Below, piece by piece: positions 42,881 to 55,108 of a stretch of 64,000 nt of DNA; positions within the stretch are counted from its first letter, which is position 1; the number at the start of each line of letters is the position of its first letter. Under the pieces are notes generated by a model. That model had not been told where the DNA came from. It saw only the letters and a list, made by a program, of their open reading frames with translations, and made no database searches. The DNA is taken from the NCBI GenBank assembly GCA_933822405.4, contig CAKOGP040002191.1, positions 62,001 through 126,000 of the forward strand, read 5' to 3'. The translations under genes were made by a program, and so were the position numbers. The DNA comes from Cylindrotheca closterium (lineage: Eukaryota; Bacillariophyta; Bacillariophyceae; Bacillariales; Bacillariaceae).

Positions 42881-44202
42881 TTATACTGACTCAAAATGCA
42901 AAGAGGGAAAGGTTGCCTCTTCAATCCCAGTTGGTATACTGCAGATAGAAGAGTTGGAGGAAGAGGGTGGTTCATGTACGTGATCATAAACCTGTGGTGG
43001 TTCAAACTTGTTGCTAGCTCTCGAGAGTGAGGTAGTACAAGTCCAGCTCTGTGGTGGTAGTGGTTTTGGATAGAAGGCCGAATCCTGCTGGGACGAGGAC
43101 ATGAATTGTTTCGTCAACAAGGATGGAGCAAAAAGCTGTTGTTGTTGTTGTTGCTGCTGCATGTTCAAGTCACTCTTGCTTGTTGTTGTTCTTGACAAGG
43201 ATTCATCTTGTTCTTTCATCATCATCAAGAACGATGATAAGGATGATGGTGCATCTTGTGGAGGAGAATCCGCAAAAAGTGTCAATATTTGATCGGCCTG
43301 TGAAAGTAAGGCTTGCGAAAAGACTGGTGTCGGAAGAGTCGTAGTAGGCTCCTCTGGTTGGGCAATCTTGGATGGTTCCAGGTCGGAGAACTGAAACCCA
43401 GTGTTGGTTACCAACCATTCCAGTGTATCCGGTGAGGACGTAGTACTACTTGCAGTGGTAGTGCTGGTACTACTGCTAGTAGTACGATGACCCATAGGAC
43501 CAGTAGCTGCCTTTGGAACAGACGACCAGGGTTCTTCTGAACTTTGACCCTACAGTATATAGGTAAATAGGAATAGATAGCGCGTTAGATGATGATGATG
43601 AATGATGATGATGAATGATGATAATGATGATGCTTGCAAAGTTCAAAGTGTAGTAATGGGAAACGTACCATTTCTTTCCTGCTGCTGCTTTTGCTGGTGA
43701 TTGCAGGCTTCGCATTTTTCCGTGCCACCGGTGCCTTTATCCGATCGATATCATGGGTCAGTTGCCGATTCCCCTTGATGAACTTTGGGTGATGAAAGGC
43801 ACCCTGCAAAGGACCCTTGAGGATCCGTTTGAAGCCATAAATGTGCAACTGCCTCTGAAAGGACTTGTACGACTTTTGCTTGAAGAATTGCGGGACAATC
43901 TTTTCCATAAAGGCAACCGAGTCATGCACTTTGAAATGCAAGCCATCGGGTAACCACGAGACAATGTTAGAAGCCATGGGGTCCTTGGCTTCCGTCTCTT
44001 CCAGCATCTGATGCAGTTTGTATGGAAAAGGGACCAGGTATCGAAAGCCTGATCCGGAAACAACCTTTATGGAGCCGGCACCATTGGGCAGTGGCAGTGG
44101 TGGCTGTGCTCGTGGTTGTGCTTGTGCTCGTGGTTGTGGTTGTGATTGCAATTCCAATTGCGATTGCAATTGGGTTATTCTTATTTGATCTTGTTGTCTC
44201 AT
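42881..44202 (-). CDS. Heat shock factor-type transcription factor
   Basis: Exons 43669-44202 and 42881-43549 give 400 residues; the intron (119 bp, GTACGT...GTAG) contains a GATGAT/GAATGATG microsatellite. After a Q/P/A-rich head, residues about 55-155 form an HSF DNA-binding domain: PFPYKLHQMLEE, IVSWLPDGLHFKVHD, FMEKIVPQFFKQKSYKSFQR, QLHIYGFKR, and HHPKFIKGNRQL. The reduced wing and the NIVSWLPDG pattern are typical of the very large HSF family of diatoms. No clear leucine-zipper HR-A/B region follows; the second exon encodes a Ser/Thr/Gln-rich activation-type tail with a Q run (QQQQQQQQ). Targets cannot be inferred. The ATG at 44202 is the first in frame before the Q-rich head. Confidence 0.9.
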
Positions 44203-46788
44203 TATTCTGCTCTGGTGGGTTCAATTACGTCCCTCGCTTCCAGTATGTATTTCGAATGTAGTGTAGTGACAGTGCTGCCAGTGAACTTAATTCGTTGCTT
44301 TTCGAATGATACTGCTGATATTCATCAAATCAATGTGCAACGCAAAAGTGGTCTCGTCTGCTGCAGTATTCTGCTTCTGATCAAAGCTCGATTAGTGGCT
44401 CGAAGGATGAGGTGGTTTTATCCTCCGTGAAAAAGAGACATACCTGTCCTTTTTGTGGCCATCTGTTTCCCTGGACGAGGAAATTAATTAAAGGAACCAA
44501 TTTTTATATAAGTAAAGTTCGATGATGCACGAGAGATTATCTCTCATTCGAAAAAGACGTGGCAAGCCATACATAATAAACTTTCGGAGTTTTTCACTTT
44601 CGGACCACCTCACACTGACGATCACACTGACGATCGAACCAGCTCGCACTGCCGCTCAATTCCATTTTCGGGTCATCACCACATTCGCCAAAGGTCCCAC
44701 ACCCTTTTTTCGTTTCGTTGTATATTTCCGTCACCTGTCAGCTGTCAGTGGTGAGCCGAAGAAAAAAGGGACATCTCTGAGTATCTACCGGTATCAGGTA
44801 CCTTTCCCCGTCATGCGTTGTGTACGTTTTTGGAGTAGAAAAAGTGGATTTCTTACAACGACCAGTGGACATCTTACAACGATCAGTGAGTGTATTGTAC
44901 CAGTATCATTGCAACGAGTGAGTAGAGAACAGATCTGTAGATGTGTTGTGGTGTTGTCCAATAGTATAGCACAGCAGCCAGCCAGCCAGTCACCACCACA
45001 TTGTCAAAAATTTGATTGGTAGTATTAATAGTATTAGACTATTTTTTAAAAAAAATACTTGATTCTTCAGATCAGTTACTCCAAGATCTTGTCTCATTTT
45101 CCTCTCTTGCAGTATCTTCTTGCACTCCAAGCACTACGAGTTCGCTGGTCACAGCATTCATGATTGATTCATTCGTCCCTCCTCCTCCAAAGAACCAAAC
45201 GGAAAGACTATATACTCTTGGAAAGACCACCTACAGTATTATCAAGGACAGACGGTAAAAGGTGGGTTTTGCAATTCTCTTCTCACAACACGATCAGATT
45301 GGTTCACGAACGGCATATAAATCTTGTCCTTGCGTAAACAGATAAATCGCTGAGCAGAACAGCAAAAACTGCTTAATGTTAGGACAGATACTAAGACAGT
45401 AGGCACCAGGTACCGGACTGGTAGATAGATGAACAGATACCCGTAGATACATTTTATGGAGCAATTTTTAAAAGACTTTATTATTCCCAGCGCATTGCAA
45501 GTATCACCAAGAGTAAAGGTCTTACGGTATTTTAGATCTCCTGAAAGAGAATGAATCACGTTTCATGTTTGTTACCGAAGAAACACCCGATGACGAGATA
45601 TCGCTATCGATAGATGATGCACCATTGAACATGTGATCCATGCTAGTCACAGAAGATAGCTACACCCGATGATTACAATCATATGTCTTAGTGATTCTTG
45701 GAGGAGGATGATACATCTGTTGGAATTTCTTCACCATAATTTAATGGCAACAGCCAAGAGACATAATGCTGTCCAATGTCCTCATTGGCACCTGGACCAA
45801 AACCATTTTCGGTTTCGACTGATGCTTTGAACAATAGGAGGGCATAAACCAGTTCTTCTTGACGGTATTCGACGCCGCCGGCTGTCCGTCTGGAAAGATA
45901 ACCCTTTTGGGGATAACGAGGGGTTATCAGACGGTTGGTTAGATGGAAACATGATTGGGTCCGCATGAGAGGGTGTTGTGGTGTTGAAGTTCGTAGCAGC
46001 GTTGGCGTGGGCTCAACGACTGGTGACAAAAGTTGAAAAGGGGTGAAATTGAGTTGCTGAGAAAACTGTGATCGAGCATGGTGTGTTTGATAGATTGGAA
46101 GAAGCTATAACAGTTAGAACATCCTTACTTATTTCAACATATAGTACTCTCAAGTGGTGCATTAAAGGGCGACATATCCTTTTTCGCTCGACGTTTTCGC
46201 TCTACCTGTGACAAATGCATTGCATATCACGAAACGGCAGCACTTCCCGATAGCAAATTGTCTGTGGCTGTGCTGTCCGAAAACACCTTGATCATTGGCT
46301 GTCGTTCGCTTTTAGAAATTCTGCGACCATTGACCGTCTGACGGTAAAATATGATGGTGCTGTAGTCGGATCTTTGGTGATGCTATTTGGAGTTATTGTA
46401 GTTGAACGATTCACAATCTGTTATTAGTACAACGGTAGCTGTACTCTGTACTACCCATTACCCGATATTGGTAAAAATCTGGAAATTCTGTCTTTCCCCG
46501 ATATCAAGATGTGAGATTTCTCATACAATATCTGATATAGTATCGTATGTCGTACCGGTACGTACCGGTACTATAGGTATGTGTATACCAATTTTTAAAA
46601 AATGCCTCAAATACTACCCTCAAACCGATGTTAGGCGCCTGACCTCCAACCGGCAGTATATCCATCATTGCGATTTATTTCATGCGGATGAGTTGGTATT
46701 TCTACGCCTGCATACATCATCATGTTTTATTGACAGAAACAGATAGCAGCTCATATTGCAACCATTGATTCTTGCTTGATCTCCTACC
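44203..46788. other. Long intergenic region, HSF / beta-hydroxylase; one doubtful exon inside
   Basis: 2.6 kb with little gene evidence. Visible structure: a paired repeat of ACACTGACGATC at 44612-44634, a pair of CTTACAACGA(C/T)CAGTG units at 44852-44888, GTAC-type tracts at 44788-44803, 45404-45416 and 46552-46578, and a candidate small ORF (45688-45966, separate entry). A 32-codon open stretch with PPPPKN at 45162-45258 ends close to a possible donor, but no partner exon was found. Confidence 0.45.
45688..45966 (-). CDS. Doubtful 92-residue ORF, possible terminal exon
   Basis: From an ATG at 45966 the frame reads MRTQSCFHLTNRLIT..., with a middle part EYRQEELVYALLLFKASVE that looks like an amphipathic helix, and ends TDVSSSSKNH. 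The frame stays open upstream to about 46107, where TTCTAAC and TTATAG resemble a branch point and acceptor on the minus strand. No upstream exon or family was identified. It may be a real 3' exon or chance. Confidence 0.25.
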   Translation of the reverse strand: MRTQSCFHLTNRLITPRYPQKGYLSRRTAGGVEYRQEELVYALLLFKASVETENGFGPGANEDIGQHYVSWLLPLNYGEEIPTDVSSSSKNH

Positions 46789-47822
46789 ATGCTTTCAATA
46801 ATAAATAATCTTTCCAGAGCGAGTCTTCTGAAGCACAGCCACAAAATTCTCCTAAGATCTCTGTCCTCACCGCCCGATGATGACACATCAGCTTCCTCCC
46901 AACCTTCTTGTGATGTCGTTCAGGGTCCCAATTTGCTGAGAACTTCAGCAGCTCGGCCTTCGCCATCCCTTATGCTTCTTCCTGGCTTGCGATCCCTACC
47001 ATTCTGGACCTCGCCGGATAACACACGAATTGCCTATGGCGATCCCATGGTCAATCATGTGGTGGAACACCTTCAGAAAAATGCAGATTTGATCCGGACC
47101 GAATATCTAGAGCGACAAAACGAAGAATCCAATAAATTACCACCGACCAATGATTATCATGATCATCAAAAGTCTCTTCATGAGGGAAAATGGGAGTGGT
47201 TTTCATATTTGAACAAGGGAAATGTTCAAGGAGATTTTGTAAGCAAATGCGTGGAATCAATCTGTCATAAATACGCACGCATCGAGTCGTCGTCTAATCT
47301 CTCAAGTATTCATGTATAGGCCTTTCAATTTCCAAAGACAGCCAAAGTCTTGCAGGAACTACGAAAGGATCACTTGTTGTTTGAAGGTATGTCATGGATG
47401 GGCGAATCAATGAATGCACAACATGATAGTAGATGCTGAATGTACAAGTATTTTCTTTCTTTCTTCTTTCAGGAACCCCATTTGGATTCTGCTTCTTTTC
47501 CAACCTTCATGGCAACTCGAGTATACAAGCACATACCTCTCCTATGAATCTACGACTTCGCATTCATTTGCCACTCATTGTGCCTTCGGGGCAAGAGGAA
47601 GATGACTGTGCTATTCGAGTGGGTAACATGGTACGACCTTGGGTTCAGGACAAGGCCATGGTGCTGGACGACTCGTACAATCATGAAGTATGGAATCGTA
47701 CGTCGCAAGAACGAGTGTTGTTACTGGTGGATATTTGGCATCCGGATATTTCACTGGAGGAAAAGAAGGAGATTGTTGGCATGTTCCAACAAGCTCGGCA
47801 AGATGGGCTGTGGAAGAGATAG
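46789..47822 (+). CDS. Aspartyl/asparaginyl beta-hydroxylase-like Fe(II)/2-oxoglutarate dioxygenase
   Basis: Exons 46789-47238, 47320-47386 and 47473-47822 give 288 residues. The N-terminus (MLSIINNLSRASLLKHSHKILLRSL) is basic and free of acids, fitting a mitochondrial presequence. The catalytic domain (about 165-288) has the family pattern: AHTSPMNLRLRIHLPL with candidate iron ligand H193, IRVGNMVRPW, LDDSYNHEVWN with the second ligand H243, and RVLLLVDIWHPD. These enzymes hydroxylate Asp/Asn side chains in EGF-like or other proteins, or lipid A acyl chains in bacteria; the diatom substrate is unknown. The domain is the short LPXO/AspH type without TPR repeats. It is convergent with the rhodopsin-kinase-like gene 120 bp away. 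Confidence 0.88.
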
Positions 47823-47941: not shown

Positions 47942-50900
47942 TTACGATCGTTTCTTCCTGCGGTGCTGCATGCCGGAGGATTCTGGTTTGGTGTTGGGTC
48001 GTTTTCGACTTCTCTTCCTTTCGCCGTCGGAAAAATTGCTCCCTATCGTCGAGGCAATGTCCGTTATTTCCGATCGTAAGGTTATCCAACGAGCCACAAA
48101 TCTTTCGGGCAGGTCGGGACCCCGCATGGCATTAATATCTCCAACCGCCTTCATAATACTCCGAGTATTGAACAAACTGGACAGATCGCCTTTTAGACAG
48201 TGAAGCTTTTCCCATATCAGAGGCCAATTTTGTACCAGGGATGCATTGGAGTCTTCCGAAGACAATTCGTCGACTGCGTCCAAGTTCGATCGAAGTTCCT
48301 TCACCACCAAAATTACAAAGTCAGTCATGCCTTCATTATCTAAATTCTGTATCGGCATTGCTCCTGCCGTGCCAGTAGCTTCCACAGCTATTGGTAGGTA
48401 ATTGAATCTTTTTTTCCAAAGAGGAGCAATCGTCTCTGCGACAGATGACGACCGAACAGGTGCCTTTGATACGAACCCATGAGCACGAGAGAGATAGCTG
48501 GCAATATCTTGTGAAGAATCATTGGCCGAGCGCACCAGCCCAAGTATTCTGCGTTCGTGTTCCGGAGCAAGGCGTTGTCTCACTCGTTGAATGCATTCAG
48601 ATCCCGACACAGTGCTTCGAAGCGTTCCATTCTCGGTAATGTCCAAATTCTCATCGACGATCACCAAAAAGTAGTCTTCGGAATTCTTTTCGACCAGATC
48701 CACGAGAAAAGAATCAAAGGCTCGGATCTCTTCAGCCGTCGAACCTTGAATAATTTGACGAGATTCGGGCACCCCAGCATGCGATAAGAATTTAGATAGA
48801 AGTCTTCGTTGGATTTTGGAATCATCAATTGCAATACCCCAAGCATTTGATGGAATCTGAAATATTTCGGATTGAATGGCCCTTTGTCCAAAGCGTTTCG
48901 CTGGACATATCAGTGAAAATACGGTTCGTTCCTGTTCGAATCGAATATTTGCTTTTCCTCGGAGTGTCTCTGCACACTTCCATATAATCCAAGCCCCATC
49001 GCCAGCCGAGTGGGTGCCGCGCCGAACCTGACTGCCGCCATCGTGCTCACTGTGCAATCTCCTTCCAGGTTCAAATACCAATGTAGCAGCTTGATCACCA
49101 AGTCGAAGTAGGCGCTCATGCTCTGGACCTGGGAGATTCACCACCTCTATTCGCAACACTTCGCTCGATTCATCGTATACAATTTCTGTCGTGACGTCGC
49201 CACCAGTTTGGCCGTATTTGCAGGCATTGCTTACAGCGTTCCGATGTATGTACAGGAGTAATTGTGGGTCAATATATAATGACGGCAACGGCGATGGCGT
49301 AGTATTCAATTTGAAACGATCCGATCTCATTTCCCCAGCATTCAATAACCGCTTAAGTTCCACCCGTTCCATCTTGGGTTCATAGTTTCCATGAATCACA
49401 TCTCTCGCCATGGCCTCGGAAAGAATCGTGTCCAAAATAGTCCGCAACGTTTTGTCCAGTTCGCGAGTGTACACGGATACTTCTGCCTTTGGTTCTGCTA
49501 TTGTCTTTTTTCGGGCCGGTGCTCTGGCAACACCAGACTGTCCGCTATCAGAAGCCGTGCTCGAATCTTTACTACTTTCATCGTCGCCATTAAAGCTTGT
49601 ATCCTTGAGACTATCACAAAGATGAATGGCCGCCAAAAGACCATTCTTGACTTCGTGCCTAGTGAAACGGTTTGCTTCCGCATCCTTTTTCCGGGCCGTC
49701 GCTTCCAAAATCATCTTCTTTTCTGCTTCAAATCGTTTGGCCCGTTCGGAAATATCACGAATCACCATGAGCATGGCATTGTTTTCCAATCGACAAATGT
49801 TGGCCTCGCACGAAGTGAACTTTTTCGCTCCGTCACGAACTTTGAGCAATCGATGGGTCAGACTCTTTTGATCTCCAATCAAGCTCCAACCGCGAGCAAT
49901 CATACCGGCCAACGAAGTTAATAGACTATCATCCAAGGTAGAATTCAAAGTCCCAATGTCCATGTCTTGTCCAAAATCTGTAAATACGTGGGATCCCGGC
50001 GCTGGCAGGGAATGAAAGTCAATTTCGCGGACGGACCGTGGTTGTATATTGGAATACGATCGACTTTCCACATCCTCCTTTCCAATTTCGAACAAAATGG
50101 CATTGCTTTCCGTCCGACCATGATAAAGTTCCAGATAGACAGGACTGACCATGGTCGTAATGGTCCCTCCAATCCCTTGGACCGAAACGCAAATTACGTC
50201 GCTGGATCGTTCCCAGACTGCACTCATGAGTCTTCTCAATTCAATCAACCGACGGTCGGCACGTTCTCCGTCATCGAAAGCAACCTTGTGTACTTGCACA
50301 ATAATATTTAGGTACAAGTTTTTGAGGATCACATCCATGGAACACTCCCATATCATGGGAAAGTAGGGCCTTTGATTGACCCAAAGGTCGGCAATGCTTG
50401 CATCCTTGGGTGTTAAAAACATCGAAGCTCCCGCCACAAAGTACATCCACACCAAGGAGGACCATGCCACCGTACACGTGAGCATTAGTTGATATGCCAA
50501 TCGACTCCTATCGAATAGTTCTACACTGTGGGCACTACTTCCCTTTCTCATTCTGGCAAATCTAGATTTTTGCACATACAAGGCCGGGAACATGCAACCA
50601 AACAATACCACGGCAAAGATCATGACCATGATCCACTGCCAAGTGTGTTTGCACATGGGAAAGACGAAGCCAGTCAGGGTGGACAGTCCTTGAGTGAGTC
50701 CCAAAAGGTACGCATTCTTCAATTTGGCGCCCGGATCAATGCCCGCCACCAAAAAGGTCATGTAATATCCCAACGGAGCCCAGGCGCACCATCGCAAGAG
50801 GAAAATCCTCGTTCCAAAGACCGGGTCGATATGAACCGGCACGGGAATTCCACAGCACATTAATGCATTATTCAAAAAGGCGATAATTTGGGTCATCAGA

Positions 50901-51241
50901 CTCGCCACCAAGACACCGCTGAAATTGCGCGTGTCGCCCCTGGCCTCCAACCAAAACAAGGCCGAGAATCGTCCCATCATGCTGAGAAACATGAATAATG
51001 TTGCAAAGAGCGCGGAATAAAATTCGGGTCCATCCAATGTTTCCAGTTGTTCCGGTGGCGTTATCCAGTAGGACCACAGAATAAGCAAAAGCCATGCGGC
51101 AGTGACAAAGTAGGCATTCAATCGAAAGTGATGATCCACCAGTTTCACTTCGTCCAAATAGTCCTCATGGCTCAACTGGGAAAGGCTCGTCAAAGAAGCC
51201 AACGAGGGACTCTCACCGTGCTCCTCTTGCATTTGATGCAT
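47942..51241 (-). CDS. Putative rhodopsin - histidine kinase - receiver - HPt hybrid sensor
   Basis: A 1099-residue intronless ORF. Eight hydrophobic helices span about 40-318. Helix 4 has RWCAWAP (R150, W154), like R-Y-A-D-W of bacteriorhodopsin helix C but with Ala153 at the counterion; helix 7 has TVAWSSLVW, like TVVLWSAY of helix F; helix 8 has MDVILKNLY, like LDVSAKVGF, placing K307 as retinal lysine and D303 as its partner. Helix spacing matches microbial opsins with one extra N-terminal helix, as in enzyme rhodopsins. A PAS-like region (about 335-500) precedes the kinase: H529 (TRHEVKNGL), N-box HRNAVSNACKYG (666-677), GDGAWIIWK. The receiver has D806/D807, D863 and K926; the C-terminus has an HPt-like HCLKGD (H1014). 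The opsin call is by eye. Confidence 0.78.
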   Translation of the reverse strand: MHQMQEEHGESPSLASLTSLSQLSHEDYLDEVKLVDHHFRLNAYFVTAAWLLLILWSYWITPPEQLETLDGPEFYSALFATLFMFLSMMGRFSALFWLEARGDTRNFSGVLVASLMTQIIAFLNNALMCCGIPVPVHIDPVFGTRIFLLRWCAWAPLGYYMTFLVAGIDPGAKLKNAYLLGLTQGLSTLTGFVFPMCKHTWQWIMVMIFAVVLFGCMFPALYVQKSRFARMRKGSSAHSVELFDRSRLAYQLMLTCTVAWSSLVWMYFVAGASMFLTPKDASIADLWVNQRPYFPMIWECSMDVILKNLYLNIIVQVHKVAFDDGERADRRLIELRRLMSAVWERSSDVICVSVQGIGGTITTMVSPVYLELYHGRTESNAILFEIGKEDVESRSYSNIQPRSVREIDFHSLPAPGSHVFTDFGQDMDIGTLNSTLDDSLLTSLAGMIARGWSLIGDQKSLTHRLLKVRDGAKKFTSCEANICRLENNAMLMVIRDISERAKRFEAEKKMILEATARKKDAEANRFTRHEVKNGLLAAIHLCDSLKDTSFNGDDESSKDSSTASDSGQSGVARAPARKKTIAEPKAEVSVYTRELDKTLRTILDTILSEAMARDVIHGNYEPKMERVELKRLLNAGEMRSDRFKLNTTPSPLPSLYIDPQLLLYIHRNAVSNACKYGQTGGDVTTEIVYDESSEVLRIEVVNLPGPEHERLLRLGDQAATLVFEPGRRLHSEHDGGSQVRRGTHSAGDGAWIIWKCAETLRGKANIRFEQERTVFSLICPAKRFGQRAIQSEIFQIPSNAWGIAIDDSKIQRRLLSKFLSHAGVPESRQIIQGSTAEEIRAFDSFLVDLVEKNSEDYFLVIVDENLDITENGTLRSTVSGSECIQRVRQRLAPEHERRILGLVRSANDSSQDIASYLSRAHGFVSKAPVRSSSVAETIAPLWKKRFNYLPIAVEATGTAGAMPIQNLDNEGMTDFVILVVKELRSNLDAVDELSSEDSNASLVQNWPLIWEKLHCLKGDLSSLFNTRSIMKAVGDINAMRGPDLPERFVARWITLRSEITDIASTIGSNFSDGERKRSRKRPNTKPESSGMQHRRKKRS

Positions 51242-51967
51242 GCTGTTTTATTGTATTTGTATCGTATTTGTTGACTCCCCTTCTTGTGCTGTGATTGAAT
51301 GATATGCGTGTATATAATCTCAAGAGGTGCACGTTTTAGTTGTGCGTTCGCATTTAGTATCAATGCCTGAGAAGGCTATAGAGAATAGTGATAGTAGTAT
51401 CGCAGTGACGGCGATGAAACAAAGTATACAGTATAGCTGATGATGATGAATGCTTTTGATGAAAGTTTCAGCTGAACTAATATTTTGCGGCACTGCATCA
51501 CCGATAAAGTTGATATTGAAGTGCTGGCAGCTCAATCGAATAGCAAGTTTAAAGAAAACACACATGACAGATTGCAATACTTAAGAGAAAAAGAAGAAAC
51601 TTGAAGATCGTTAAGTGTCGAAAGCACGGAATCGTTCGTAGAAAAATGACGACAGAGGTGGTCCAATGATTTTAAATAAGAATCAACCGGCTATGCTTGG
51701 TTGAAGATGGCCACGGCCAGGAATTACATTAGCTACAAACACTTCTGGTGACGTGTAATAATATATACGAAGGGCGGACCAAACATTCCAACAAATGAAA
51801 AGAGAAATCCCCTCCCCAATAATAGGTACGTGTAGGTACCGCAAAACCAAAAAATATTGGCGCGGTATTTATACATAGAACATTGGAGTTTTGAAGCAAA
51901 ACCGCACACAACACTACAAAAGCAATTTGAAATTCAAATCACTAGACCACCACGACTGCCATTTTCT
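51242..51967. promoter_or_regulatory. Divergent promoter region, rhodopsin-kinase-like / HLTF-like
   Basis: 726 bp between two start codons. TATATAAT at 51310-51317 lies about 70 bp upstream of the kinase ATG, and TATTTATAC at 51866-51874 about 95 bp upstream of the helicase ATG; both are TATA-like. A short GTAC unit (GGTACGTGTAGGTACC) is at 51826-51841. No gene. Confidence 0.45.
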
Positions 51968-54900
51968 ATGGCCCCAACAACTCCCAATATGCAAATGGTC
52001 GAGAGCGCCAATGACGACAGTAGTCAGGACGATTCCTTTGCAACACAACAGCAAGGAGAAGACGCTCCCTATTTCCAAAATCAAGTCTTGCTGGCCAAGG
52101 GAGATTATTTGATTGTTGGGATTCGCTATTATCAAGGCGTTGCTCACCCTGGAGAATATGTATATCTGGTAAGAGAACCCTCTAATCCCTATGATCGCAA
52201 TGCCATTCGAGTGGACAATGTGCACCACCAAAAAATTGGCCATATCAAAGGAACCCAATGCTGTAAATTGGCACCCTTGATGGACCAGTATGGCGAAGGC
52301 CTCAAGATTGAAGGAACCATTCCTTGTCCGGGCACTGCCTGGAATCTACCCGTTTCTTTAGAATTCAATTCGACTTTGTCAGAGCCAGCGCAAACCATGG
52401 CGTTGGCCAAAGACTTGAAACACAAGTTGAAACACAGTTGCAGTCAGTTTCGAATGGAACCAAACGTGGGAGGTTCGGTTGCTGCTGTTGTCACCCCTGC
52501 TACCGTAACACCAGAAGCTGTCATTCAAACACAGGCTCTGGATTGGAATCAACAACAAAAGCAATTGGTAAGCTTGATTGTCTTGTTGTGACTGTAGGAT
52601 CGATTGTGATGTCGTACTAACTATTTTATTCTGACCAACAACGCCAAACTTCACTCCAATGACCAAGGATGACATTTTTGAAAAGCAATTGGAGTCGCAG
52701 TTGAAAGATCTGCCCAATTTGGAAATGCCTTCCGCTTTCAAGTCCAAACTGAAACTATTTGATTATCAAATACAAGGGATTCGATTCTTGGTGCAGAAGG
52801 AACGGAATCCACCCCCAGCACCCTTCTTTCGCAAAGTCAAAGAGCAGGGCAAGACGATGCACCTCTGCGAGATTACCCAATCGTCCCAAGCCAATCCACC
52901 GTCTCCCATCAAAGGTAGTCTCTTGTGCGATGAAATGGGTTTGGGCAAGTCGCTACAAGCCTTGGGCTTGATCTTGCTGGAACCAAAGGCGGGAGTGAAC
53001 TACAATGCTATCGCTATCCAGCCACCCAGTAGTATTGTGCCGGAGCAGCAGTCTACCGCCGAAAATAATAGTCACAATCCTTCCTTGTCCATGATTCAAT
53101 CCACCAACAATGTTACCTTGAAACAAATACTCAAAGCGGCCAAGCTCAAGACTTCGGGGAACAAGAAGGCTCTTGTCGAACGTATTGCGCAAGGTTTGAC
53201 TTCCAACGCCATTACCAGGGAACATTTTCCCGAGTCCATGTTCCAACAGCCACCAAAATCAGCACCTCTTGTTCCTACACCACAAGCCAATCATACTAGC
53301 AAGAATAACGGCAACACCAACAAGTGCACCTTGATTGTTTGCCCCGTGACCGTCATGGCCAATTGGACCCATCAAGTCCAAGATCATGTCCAAGAAGGAG
53401 TATTGAGCCTAAAGTTGTATCATGGCAACAGTCGACAAAAGATTCTAAGAAAAGTTCTGGACGACCAAGTGGACATTTTACTAGTGTCCTATCATACCCT
53501 GGCGGCCGATTATGCCAAAGCCTTTACCAATAGTAGTAGCAGTACTGTTACTAGTGGTAGTGCTGGAGAAGAACCAGTCCGCAAAAAGGCCAAGACCCAA
53601 TCGATTTTTGACATTTCCTTCCATCGCATCATTTTGGACGAAGCGGTATGTATACCATCTTGCAATTGCGAAGCAACGTTTTGAATGCCGCTAACAATAT
53701 CATTCTGACCTTTGGCTATTGTACCCTTCAGCATACCATTCGGAATCCCAAGGCCAGACCCTTCAAGGCGGTATCCGAAATTCAAGCGGCCCGTCGACTC
53801 GCCATTACTGGTACTCCCTTTGTGAATCGGTCACAGGATATTTACAGTCTCTTATCCTTCCTTCAAGTCGAACCATTGAATCAAAGCGAAATCTTTCAAC
53901 GGGCCATTTCCAAACCCCTGCAAAATGGACAGGAGATTGGTTTGACTCGTTTGCGCACAATCATGGGGTTCGTCTCGCTCCGTCGCTCGAAGCAAAACAT
54001 TCCCGGCCTAACAATGGTGGACAAAACTGTCAACTTGGCCACTGTCGAGTTTGGAAATGATATACACAAGCAAGTCTACGACGCTTTGTATGGAACCTTG
54101 AGAGTGGCCATGACCGCAATTCTGAAGGATAACAACAATGCTCTCGGCAACTATTACAACATTTTTGAAAAGCTACTTCGTCTGCGACAGGCCTGTTGTT
54201 CAGGACTTCTCTTGACCAAGGAACGTCGCGAAGCAGCTTTGCAAATCTGGAAACAGGTCTCATCCAAGTCAAGGGAACAAGAGTTGTCTCCGGAAGAGGG
54301 TTTGAAGCTACTCGAGAAACTCAAGGGTGAATTCACCCAGGCACTGCCAGAGTGCGGCATTTGTTTGGAAGAGTTTGATCAAACCGAAGGAACTATTCTC
54401 AAGGGCTGTGGTCACGTCTTTTGTAACAATTGTATCAAACAAGTATTGGAACGAAGCAATCAAAAGTGCCCCTACTGTCGACAAAAATTCCGTTCGGAAG
54501 ATATCGTCAGCATGGTAACCGCGAAAGCTGCAGCAAACAAAGCAGCCGTGGAAACTTTGGATGAAGGCGAGGAGTTTGGAACGCCACCCAAGATTCGAGC
54601 ATTACTTCAAACTATTGGATCCACCGTTAAGCCAGACGAAAAGGCTGTGATCTTCTCGCAATTCACATCCTACCTCGATATCATTGGATCCGCCATGAAA
54701 GACGCAGGACATGAATTTGTTCGAATCGATGGTTCGGTTCCTTCCTCAAAGCGGATTGAGCGCATTTCTCAATTCACTCAGGATGGCGGGCCTCGGTTCA
54801 TCCTGTGCTCGCTTTTGGCCAGTGGAGTTGGTATCAATCTTAGTCGCGGAAATCATGCGTTCTTGATGGATTGCTGGTGGAACGAGGCGATCGAGTCCCA

Positions 54901-55108
54901 AGCAATGGATCGCATTCATCGCATTGATCAAACTCGCCCAGTGCAAGTCACCAAGTTCATCATGAAGGAGAGTATTGAGGAGCGCATTGTGTCTTTGCAG
55001 CAAACTAAAAGCCTTCGAGCAAAGGGTGCTATGCAAAAGCTCACCGGAAACGAGAAACGCCAGGCCTTGCTTGGAGATTTGAAGGGACTTTTAGAGATTG
55101 GCAACTGA
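51968..55108 (+). CDS. HIRAN-SNF2-RING helicase/ubiquitin ligase (HLTF/RAD5-like)
   Basis: Exons 51968-52567, 52668-53645 and 53732-55108 give 984 residues. Order: HIRAN domain (about 45-130, LIVGIRYYQGVAHPGE, EPSNPYDRNAIRV), SNF2 ATPase with DEMGLGKS (Walker A, 291-295), a SAP-like insert (LKQILKAAKLKTSGNKKALVER, split here for brevity; 352-377), DEAH (524-527), RING finger C-x2-C ... CGHVFCNNC ... CPYC (734-775), and helicase C-terminal domain (VIFSQFTSYLD, MDRIHRIDQTRPV). HIRAN plus RING inside the ATPase is diagnostic of HLTF/RAD5 proteins, which remodel stalled forks and polyubiquitinate PCNA. Intron 1 has a perfect TACTAAC branch point; intron 2 splits DEA|H. The ATG at 51968 is the first ATG before HIRAN. 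Confidence 0.93.

Follow-up and report, generated by a model that had tools for sequence, protein, structure and literature searches.

The window analysed here, a stretch of 64,000 nucleotides from the diatom Cylindrotheca closterium (assembly GCA_933822405.4, contig CAKOGP040002191.1, positions 62,001 to 126,000), carries on its minus strand a gene whose product joins an opsin-type membrane domain to a histidine kinase, a receiver-like domain and an HPt-like domain in a single chain. The coordinates given in an initial annotation, made from the sequence alone, proved exact: one open frame begins with an ATG at 51241 and closes with a stop codon ending at 47942, with 1099 codons plus the stop and 0 internal stops. 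The features recognised along it are the following.

47942..51241, minus strand: whole coding sequence, opsin-PAS-kinase-receiver-HPt; 1099 aa, intact open reading frame; 44 further homologues
51062..51169, minus strand: extra N-terminal helix TM0, residues 25-60; model helix, VIA alignment to the enzyme rhodopsin Rh-PDE
50276..51151, minus strand: eight-transmembrane (8-TM) microbial-opsin domain, residues 31-322; model with a predicted local distance difference test (pLDDT) of 88.4, Foldseek, VIA and PDB profile matches
50792..50794, minus strand: R150, helix C, taken as R82 of bacteriorhodopsin (BR); 42/42, aligned with RYAEW of Rh-PDE and RYADW of BR
50783..50785, minus strand: A153, counterion position of helix C (BR D85, Rh-PDE E164), where 39/42 have glutamate
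50780..50782, minus strand: W154, helix C; 41/42 aligned members
50333..50335, minus strand: D303, helix G, taken as BR D212 and Rh-PDE D292; 42/42
50321..50323, minus strand: K307, helix G, predicted retinal Schiff-base lysine; 42/42, 21/21 and 33/33
50207..50275, minus strand: helix continuing TM7 into the cytoplasm, residues 323-345; model
49754..50197, minus strand: PAS-like alpha/beta domain, residues 349-496; full-length model, best Foldseek rows including LOV- and PAS-linked histidine kinases
49394..49750, minus strand: DHp helices, residues 498-616, of which 550-584 are a low-confidence insert; model, Foldseek
49655..49657, minus strand: predicted phosphoacceptor H529 in DHp; H-box motif in 30/42 members
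48902..49369, minus strand: HATPase (CA) domain, residues 625-780; PF02518 at E 0.005, Foldseek
49136..49138, minus strand: N702, at the place expected for the G1-box aspartate; asparagine in 27/27 members
48404..48844, minus strand: predicted receiver domain, residues 800-946, with D806, D807, D863 (48653-48655), S905 and K926; model topology, catalytic residues
48038..48334, minus strand: HPt-like four-helix domain, residues 970-1068, with H1014 (48200-48202) in LHCLKGD; model, motif

The eight hydrophobic helices proposed in the annotation were recovered as eight long membrane helices in the models of both the 8-TM domain and the full-length protein, together with two short strands between helices B and C. 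The opsin proposal was to be given up if the domain confidently matched some other fold. The outcome was the opposite: microbial rhodopsins fill all 50 rows that Foldseek listed for the 8-TM model and all 50 listed by VIA, an entry titled soluble bacteriorhodopsin being among them. Among the matches listed, the best by VIA is the 8-TM enzyme rhodopsin Rh-PDE, aligned from residue 34 of the diatom protein and over Rh-PDE residues 47-310, a range that includes its TM0 (50-73, according to the accessible passages of PMC7644710); the helix modelled at 25-60 agrees in this respect with the proposed likeness to the extra N-terminal helix of enzyme rhodopsins. By the model, the protein combines the seven-helix fold of type 1 rhodopsins with the marks of an 8-TM enzyme rhodopsin, namely TM0 and a C-terminal enzyme domain carried on a helical linker. 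VIA applied to the full-length model listed only opsins, the alignments covering the opsin domain and not the other domains. On the sequence side, a single-sequence search of the PDB returned no opsin and profiles were needed: the three PDB sequences matched by the sensor profile were all opsins, and Rh-PDE was the best match in three profile searches, bestrhodopsin drawing level in another.

Three protein searches yielded 45 family proteins in all, the window's own counted, and 42 of them (P0013, P0016 and P0037 omitted) entered the residue alignment. R150, D303 and K307 are identical in 42/42; the latter two are also invariant in 21/21 and 33/33, two sets that together make up all 45, while W154 and W260 are each kept in 41/42 and E153 in 39/42. 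The residues lie where the annotation had placed them, that is R150 and W154 in helix C, W260 in the helix-F stretch TVAWSSLVW, and D303 and K307 in DVILK, so that the last helix (294-322 in the model) bears the DxxxK motif of a Schiff-base lysine. Charged residues or histidine (D, E, K, R or H) occupy columns 73, 139, 150, 153, 241, 245, 299, 303, 307 and 318 in at least 38/42 members, namely the second residue of helix A (73), the B-C loop (139), helix C (150, 153), the start of the long helix F (241, 245) and helix G, with 318 near its end. Positions 150, 153, 303 and 307 we take to be the R82, D85, D212 and K216 set of bacteriorhodopsin. The register of K307 was derived from the DxxxK motif and the VIA end ranges, which for 1fbb, 3qap, 1h68 and 1jgj place it on BR K216 or SRII K205 and in the other rows fall 1-4 residues off. 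Part of the bacteriorhodopsin numbering is given in the same passages of PMC7644710, where the D96 place of Rh-PDE is a tryptophan. In the diatom family this place (residue 164) is hydrophobic in 42/42 (L, V, F, I or M), which, judged from the sequence, would fit a sensor and not a proton pump.

The full-length model (pLDDT 73.9, predicted template modelling score (pTM) 0.42) continues from the TM7 helix extension through the PAS-like domain (349-496), DHp (498-616), CA (625-780) and an alpha/beta domain (800-946) to four helices (970-1068), and the best Foldseek rows for it comprise phytochromes and histidine kinases, LOV or PAS domains being present in several of the kinases. As in histidine kinase rhodopsins (HKRs), a DHp and CA core lies in the same chain as the opsin, as seen by Foldseek and by PF02518 in the relatives (16/33 members, best 4.4e-6). 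The H-box motif is present in 30/42 members, the other 12, all 551-677 aa long, being probably cut-short gene models, and the N box and GDGAWI stretch are found in 27. In the alpha/beta domain D806 and D807 follow strand 1 (800-805), D863 and S905 close strands 3 (857-863) and 4 (899-905), and K926 follows strand 5 (922-925), an arrangement that we take to be the receiver pattern; the five catalytic residues are kept in 26/26 members extending this far, and the model suggests a beta hairpin inserted after strand 3. H1014, in LHCLKGD, is modelled on the second of the four helices, presumably as in HPt domains, and its motif occurs in 19/42 members, which is 19/26 of those extending to the receiver, and is absent in 7 (e.g., P0020, P0030 and P0038). 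The kinase, receiver and HPt module of the annotation is thus borne out by structure comparison for the kinase, while receiver and HPt are recognised by topology and catalytic residues, their profiles being weak. Guanylyl cyclase was not matched in the protein by Pfam or NCBIfam, and the C-terminus is instead the four-helix HPt-like domain.

Several observations weigh against a light-controlled kinase, beginning with the opsin domain itself. The PF01036 search recommended in the annotation was negative for the protein, the sensor domains and the genome (0 matches, against 4 in the Halobacterium positive control), and no Pfam opsin model appeared at E<=10 in the protein or 11 sensor domains, nor among the best 25 of the 39 families matched by 33 members; the whole protein, searched with Pfam and NCBIfam, had weak kinase-type matches only. 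Against 80 haloarchaeal opsins, hhalign gave no significant match (E 0.31, probability 0.2%), though with helix C in register, and a forced longer alignment left helices F and G unaligned and gave nothing useful. We read the PF01036 result as placing the opsin domain below the reach of Pfam, a match to this family being a curated sequence threshold rather than a biological feature. The silence of Pfam and the hhalign result are also what a non-opsin sensor of seven or eight helices, with a convergent DxxxK, would give, yet Foldseek and VIA list nothing but opsins, TM0 and the B-C hairpin strands are present, and the sensor profile drew only opsins from the PDB, which makes this disfavoured origin very improbable.

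The predicted retinal site of this copy also departs from the family, a feature absent from the annotation: the helix-C counterion position is A153, and G153 in the two nearest relatives, so that the helix-C acid is missing, a loss that corresponds to one change on the 42-row tree (clade support 100/100). Together with an identity to known opsins of just 10-16% in the listed VIA alignments, the loss could indicate an opsin-fold sensor that kept its lysine and is no light receptor, its kinase driven without retinal or by another small molecule or a membrane state. We regard this as unlikely, the invariance of K307, D303 and R150 across deep divergence being hard to explain without a Schiff base. 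Moreover, E164 of Rh-PDE is described as always protonated and the helix-G D292 as the unique counterion (PMC7644710, in the part available), so that D303 may suffice for a protonated Schiff base and the loss need not abolish function; the light-regulated green-algal opsin-kinase Cop6/Vop6 is likewise said to be without all three BR carboxylates (PMC7693036, passages available). In a light receptor, D303 would then be the sole counterion of this copy and, by analogy with Rh-PDE, may alone hold the protonated Schiff base, with a colour possibly shifted.

For the output module, PF02518 reaches only E 0.005 in this protein, below the Pfam cut-off, and PF00072 (E 0.19, in 1/8) and PF01627 (E 0.0054, in 1/7) are sub-threshold, while receiver-alone and HPt-alone profiles found nothing convincing in the PDB (best receiver-type match E 1.0 over 21 positions). 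With pTM at 0.42 and large root-mean-square deviations in the Foldseek rows the domain arrangement is unreliable, which accounts for the low whole-chain TM-scores. Position 702, which we take to be the G1-box aspartate place of histidine kinases, is asparagine in 27/27, an unusual ATP site that puts ATP use in question. A light-regulated transmembrane opsin whose kinase lost catalysis, the module serving as a scaffold or acting through the PAS domain, would be consistent with N702 and with the weak HATPase score, but we think it rather improbable: the H-box in most members, the N box and GDGAWI stretch and the complete receiver set form a conserved phosphoacceptor chain, which argues for phosphotransfer.

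We consider it highly likely that the protein is a diatom enzyme rhodopsin, whose fold, conserved Schiff-base residues and domain order are supported by computation and whose opsin-type membrane domain, as modelled, probably senses light. Retinal, bound on K307, would isomerise on light absorption, helix G and its continuing helix would shift, and the shift would be passed through the PAS-like domain to DHp and the histidine kinase; from the domain order, phosphate would then move from H529 to D863 and H1014 within the same chain and on to a free response regulator. The observation made in the initial annotation is confirmed and its interpretation supported, the light-driven phosphorelay being a sound inference.

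Among the searches, one scored only the 7998 candidates richest in common words and returned the same 21 proteins, and a further one started from a distant family member. The named sources are C. closterium (P0009 and P0012 bear this name), C. fusiformis, Nitzschia inconspicua, metagenome-assembled genomes of Bacillariaceae sp., Mayamaea, Fistulifera and Amphora; P0008 and P0035 carry names of transcripts. The four species checked, C. closterium, F. solaris, M. pseudoterrestris and A. coffeaeformis, all belong to the class Bacillariophyceae and the clade Bacillariophycidae, which we take to be the raphid, gliding diatoms. Since many homologues are metagenome proteins this range is a minimum, and the family may be present beyond the observed class, the protein search depending on common five-residue words. 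Searches with three family members located at least three family genes in the 47.6 Mb genome, the window gene (contig C539) and one each on C3 and C211. The paralogue P0009 carries E153.

ArcB and BvgS are tripartite hybrid kinases, in which a single chain holds kinase, receiver and HPt and forms an internal His-Asp-His relay; this is also the output predicted for the diatom protein, although they are bacterial and have non-opsin sensors. Rh-PDE of Salpingoeca rosetta (PDB 7cj3, 7d7q) resembles it in the 8-TM opsin with TM0, the helix continuing TM7, the helix-C R, E and W, which align with those of most diatom members, and DxxxK in the last helix, and differs in its phosphodiesterase output, its choanoflagellate host and the A153 of the diatom copy. 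In green-algal HKRs, too, a single chain holds an opsin, whose last helix has the retinal lysine, a histidine kinase and a receiver, the lysine and the receiver being predicted ones in the diatom protein. Many of these HKRs carry a cyclase, whereas the diatom protein has none and ends in an HPt-like domain; at 2549 aa, Cr2c-Cyclop1 is more than twice its size. By its architecture the protein is placed with histidine kinase rhodopsins, its opsin being nearest to Rh-PDE in structure. Eight helices are implied for cyclase opsins (PMC6284317, in part), and the reported hosts of enzyme rhodopsins are fungi, green algae and choanoflagellates (passages of PMC7644710). Retinal proteins already known from diatoms include xanthorhodopsin-type pumps (PMC10627834) and heliorhodopsins, with no kinase chain reported in the passages available; unlike the opsin-kinase family, heliorhodopsins are detected by Pfam in this genome, with three matches (C435:726275-727048, C435:711797-712405 and C507:210114-210887). 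In the accessible text, stramenopile type 1 rhodopsins are known, e.g., from Hyphochytrium (PMC5795050), modular opsin-kinases are reported in several algae, the words "diatom" and "HPt" being absent from the main text (PMC7693036), and the diatom photoreceptors named are cryptochromes, aureochromes, phytochromes, heliorhodopsins and GPCR-rhodopsin-like proteins, with no opsin-kinase (PMC8413402). No diatom opsin-kinase was found among the matches listed, as far as their text was available, in the open-access literature (subscription papers, preprints and supplements lying outside the scope), which agrees with the annotation, to which no description in diatoms was known.

RPE65-type carotenoid oxygenases gave eight matches at five places in the genome, and there were 28 receiver matches and one canonical HPt match, which makes retinal supply and downstream regulators plausible; the Blh-type cleavage enzyme (PF15461) had no match, and neither did its control. 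The only canonical HPt match lies with three receiver matches in a 1168-aa frame at C533:159355-161028, a possible multi-step relay protein. The flanking genes look unrelated. The head-to-head neighbour (51836-55108, plus strand), with HIRAN, SAP, SNF2, RING and helicase-C over several frames, is presumably a RAD5/HLTF-like DNA repair ATPase; the tail-to-tail neighbour (46780-47822, plus strand) carries PF05118, an aspartyl/asparaginyl beta-hydroxylase domain, in 47433-47822, and the frame 46780-47319, without a Pfam match, may be another exon of it. An HSF-type DNA-binding gene lies at 43585-44217 on the minus strand.

The gene suggests that diatoms possess a family of light-controlled kinases not described before. 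The family would add a kinase-receiver-HPt output to enzyme rhodopsins, indicates that Pfam can miss a whole opsin group and might serve optogenetics as a module to control two-component systems. Light-to-movement signalling in diatoms has been called still largely unexplored (PMC12216474, in the part available), although the same work, judging by its title, gives a key signalling role to the thylakoid proton gradient, a preference that argues against a dedicated receptor being needed in that response; the family members are candidates for knock-out in gliding diatoms. More tentatively, they may form a separate diatom enzyme-rhodopsin lineage beyond current family models, which would couple light directly to a His-Asp-His phosphorelay and perhaps provide a retinal photoreceptor for light-steered gliding, one of the three C. 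closterium copies, without the helix-C carboxylate, having another colour or Schiff-base state and the three paralogues making up a possible spectral set.
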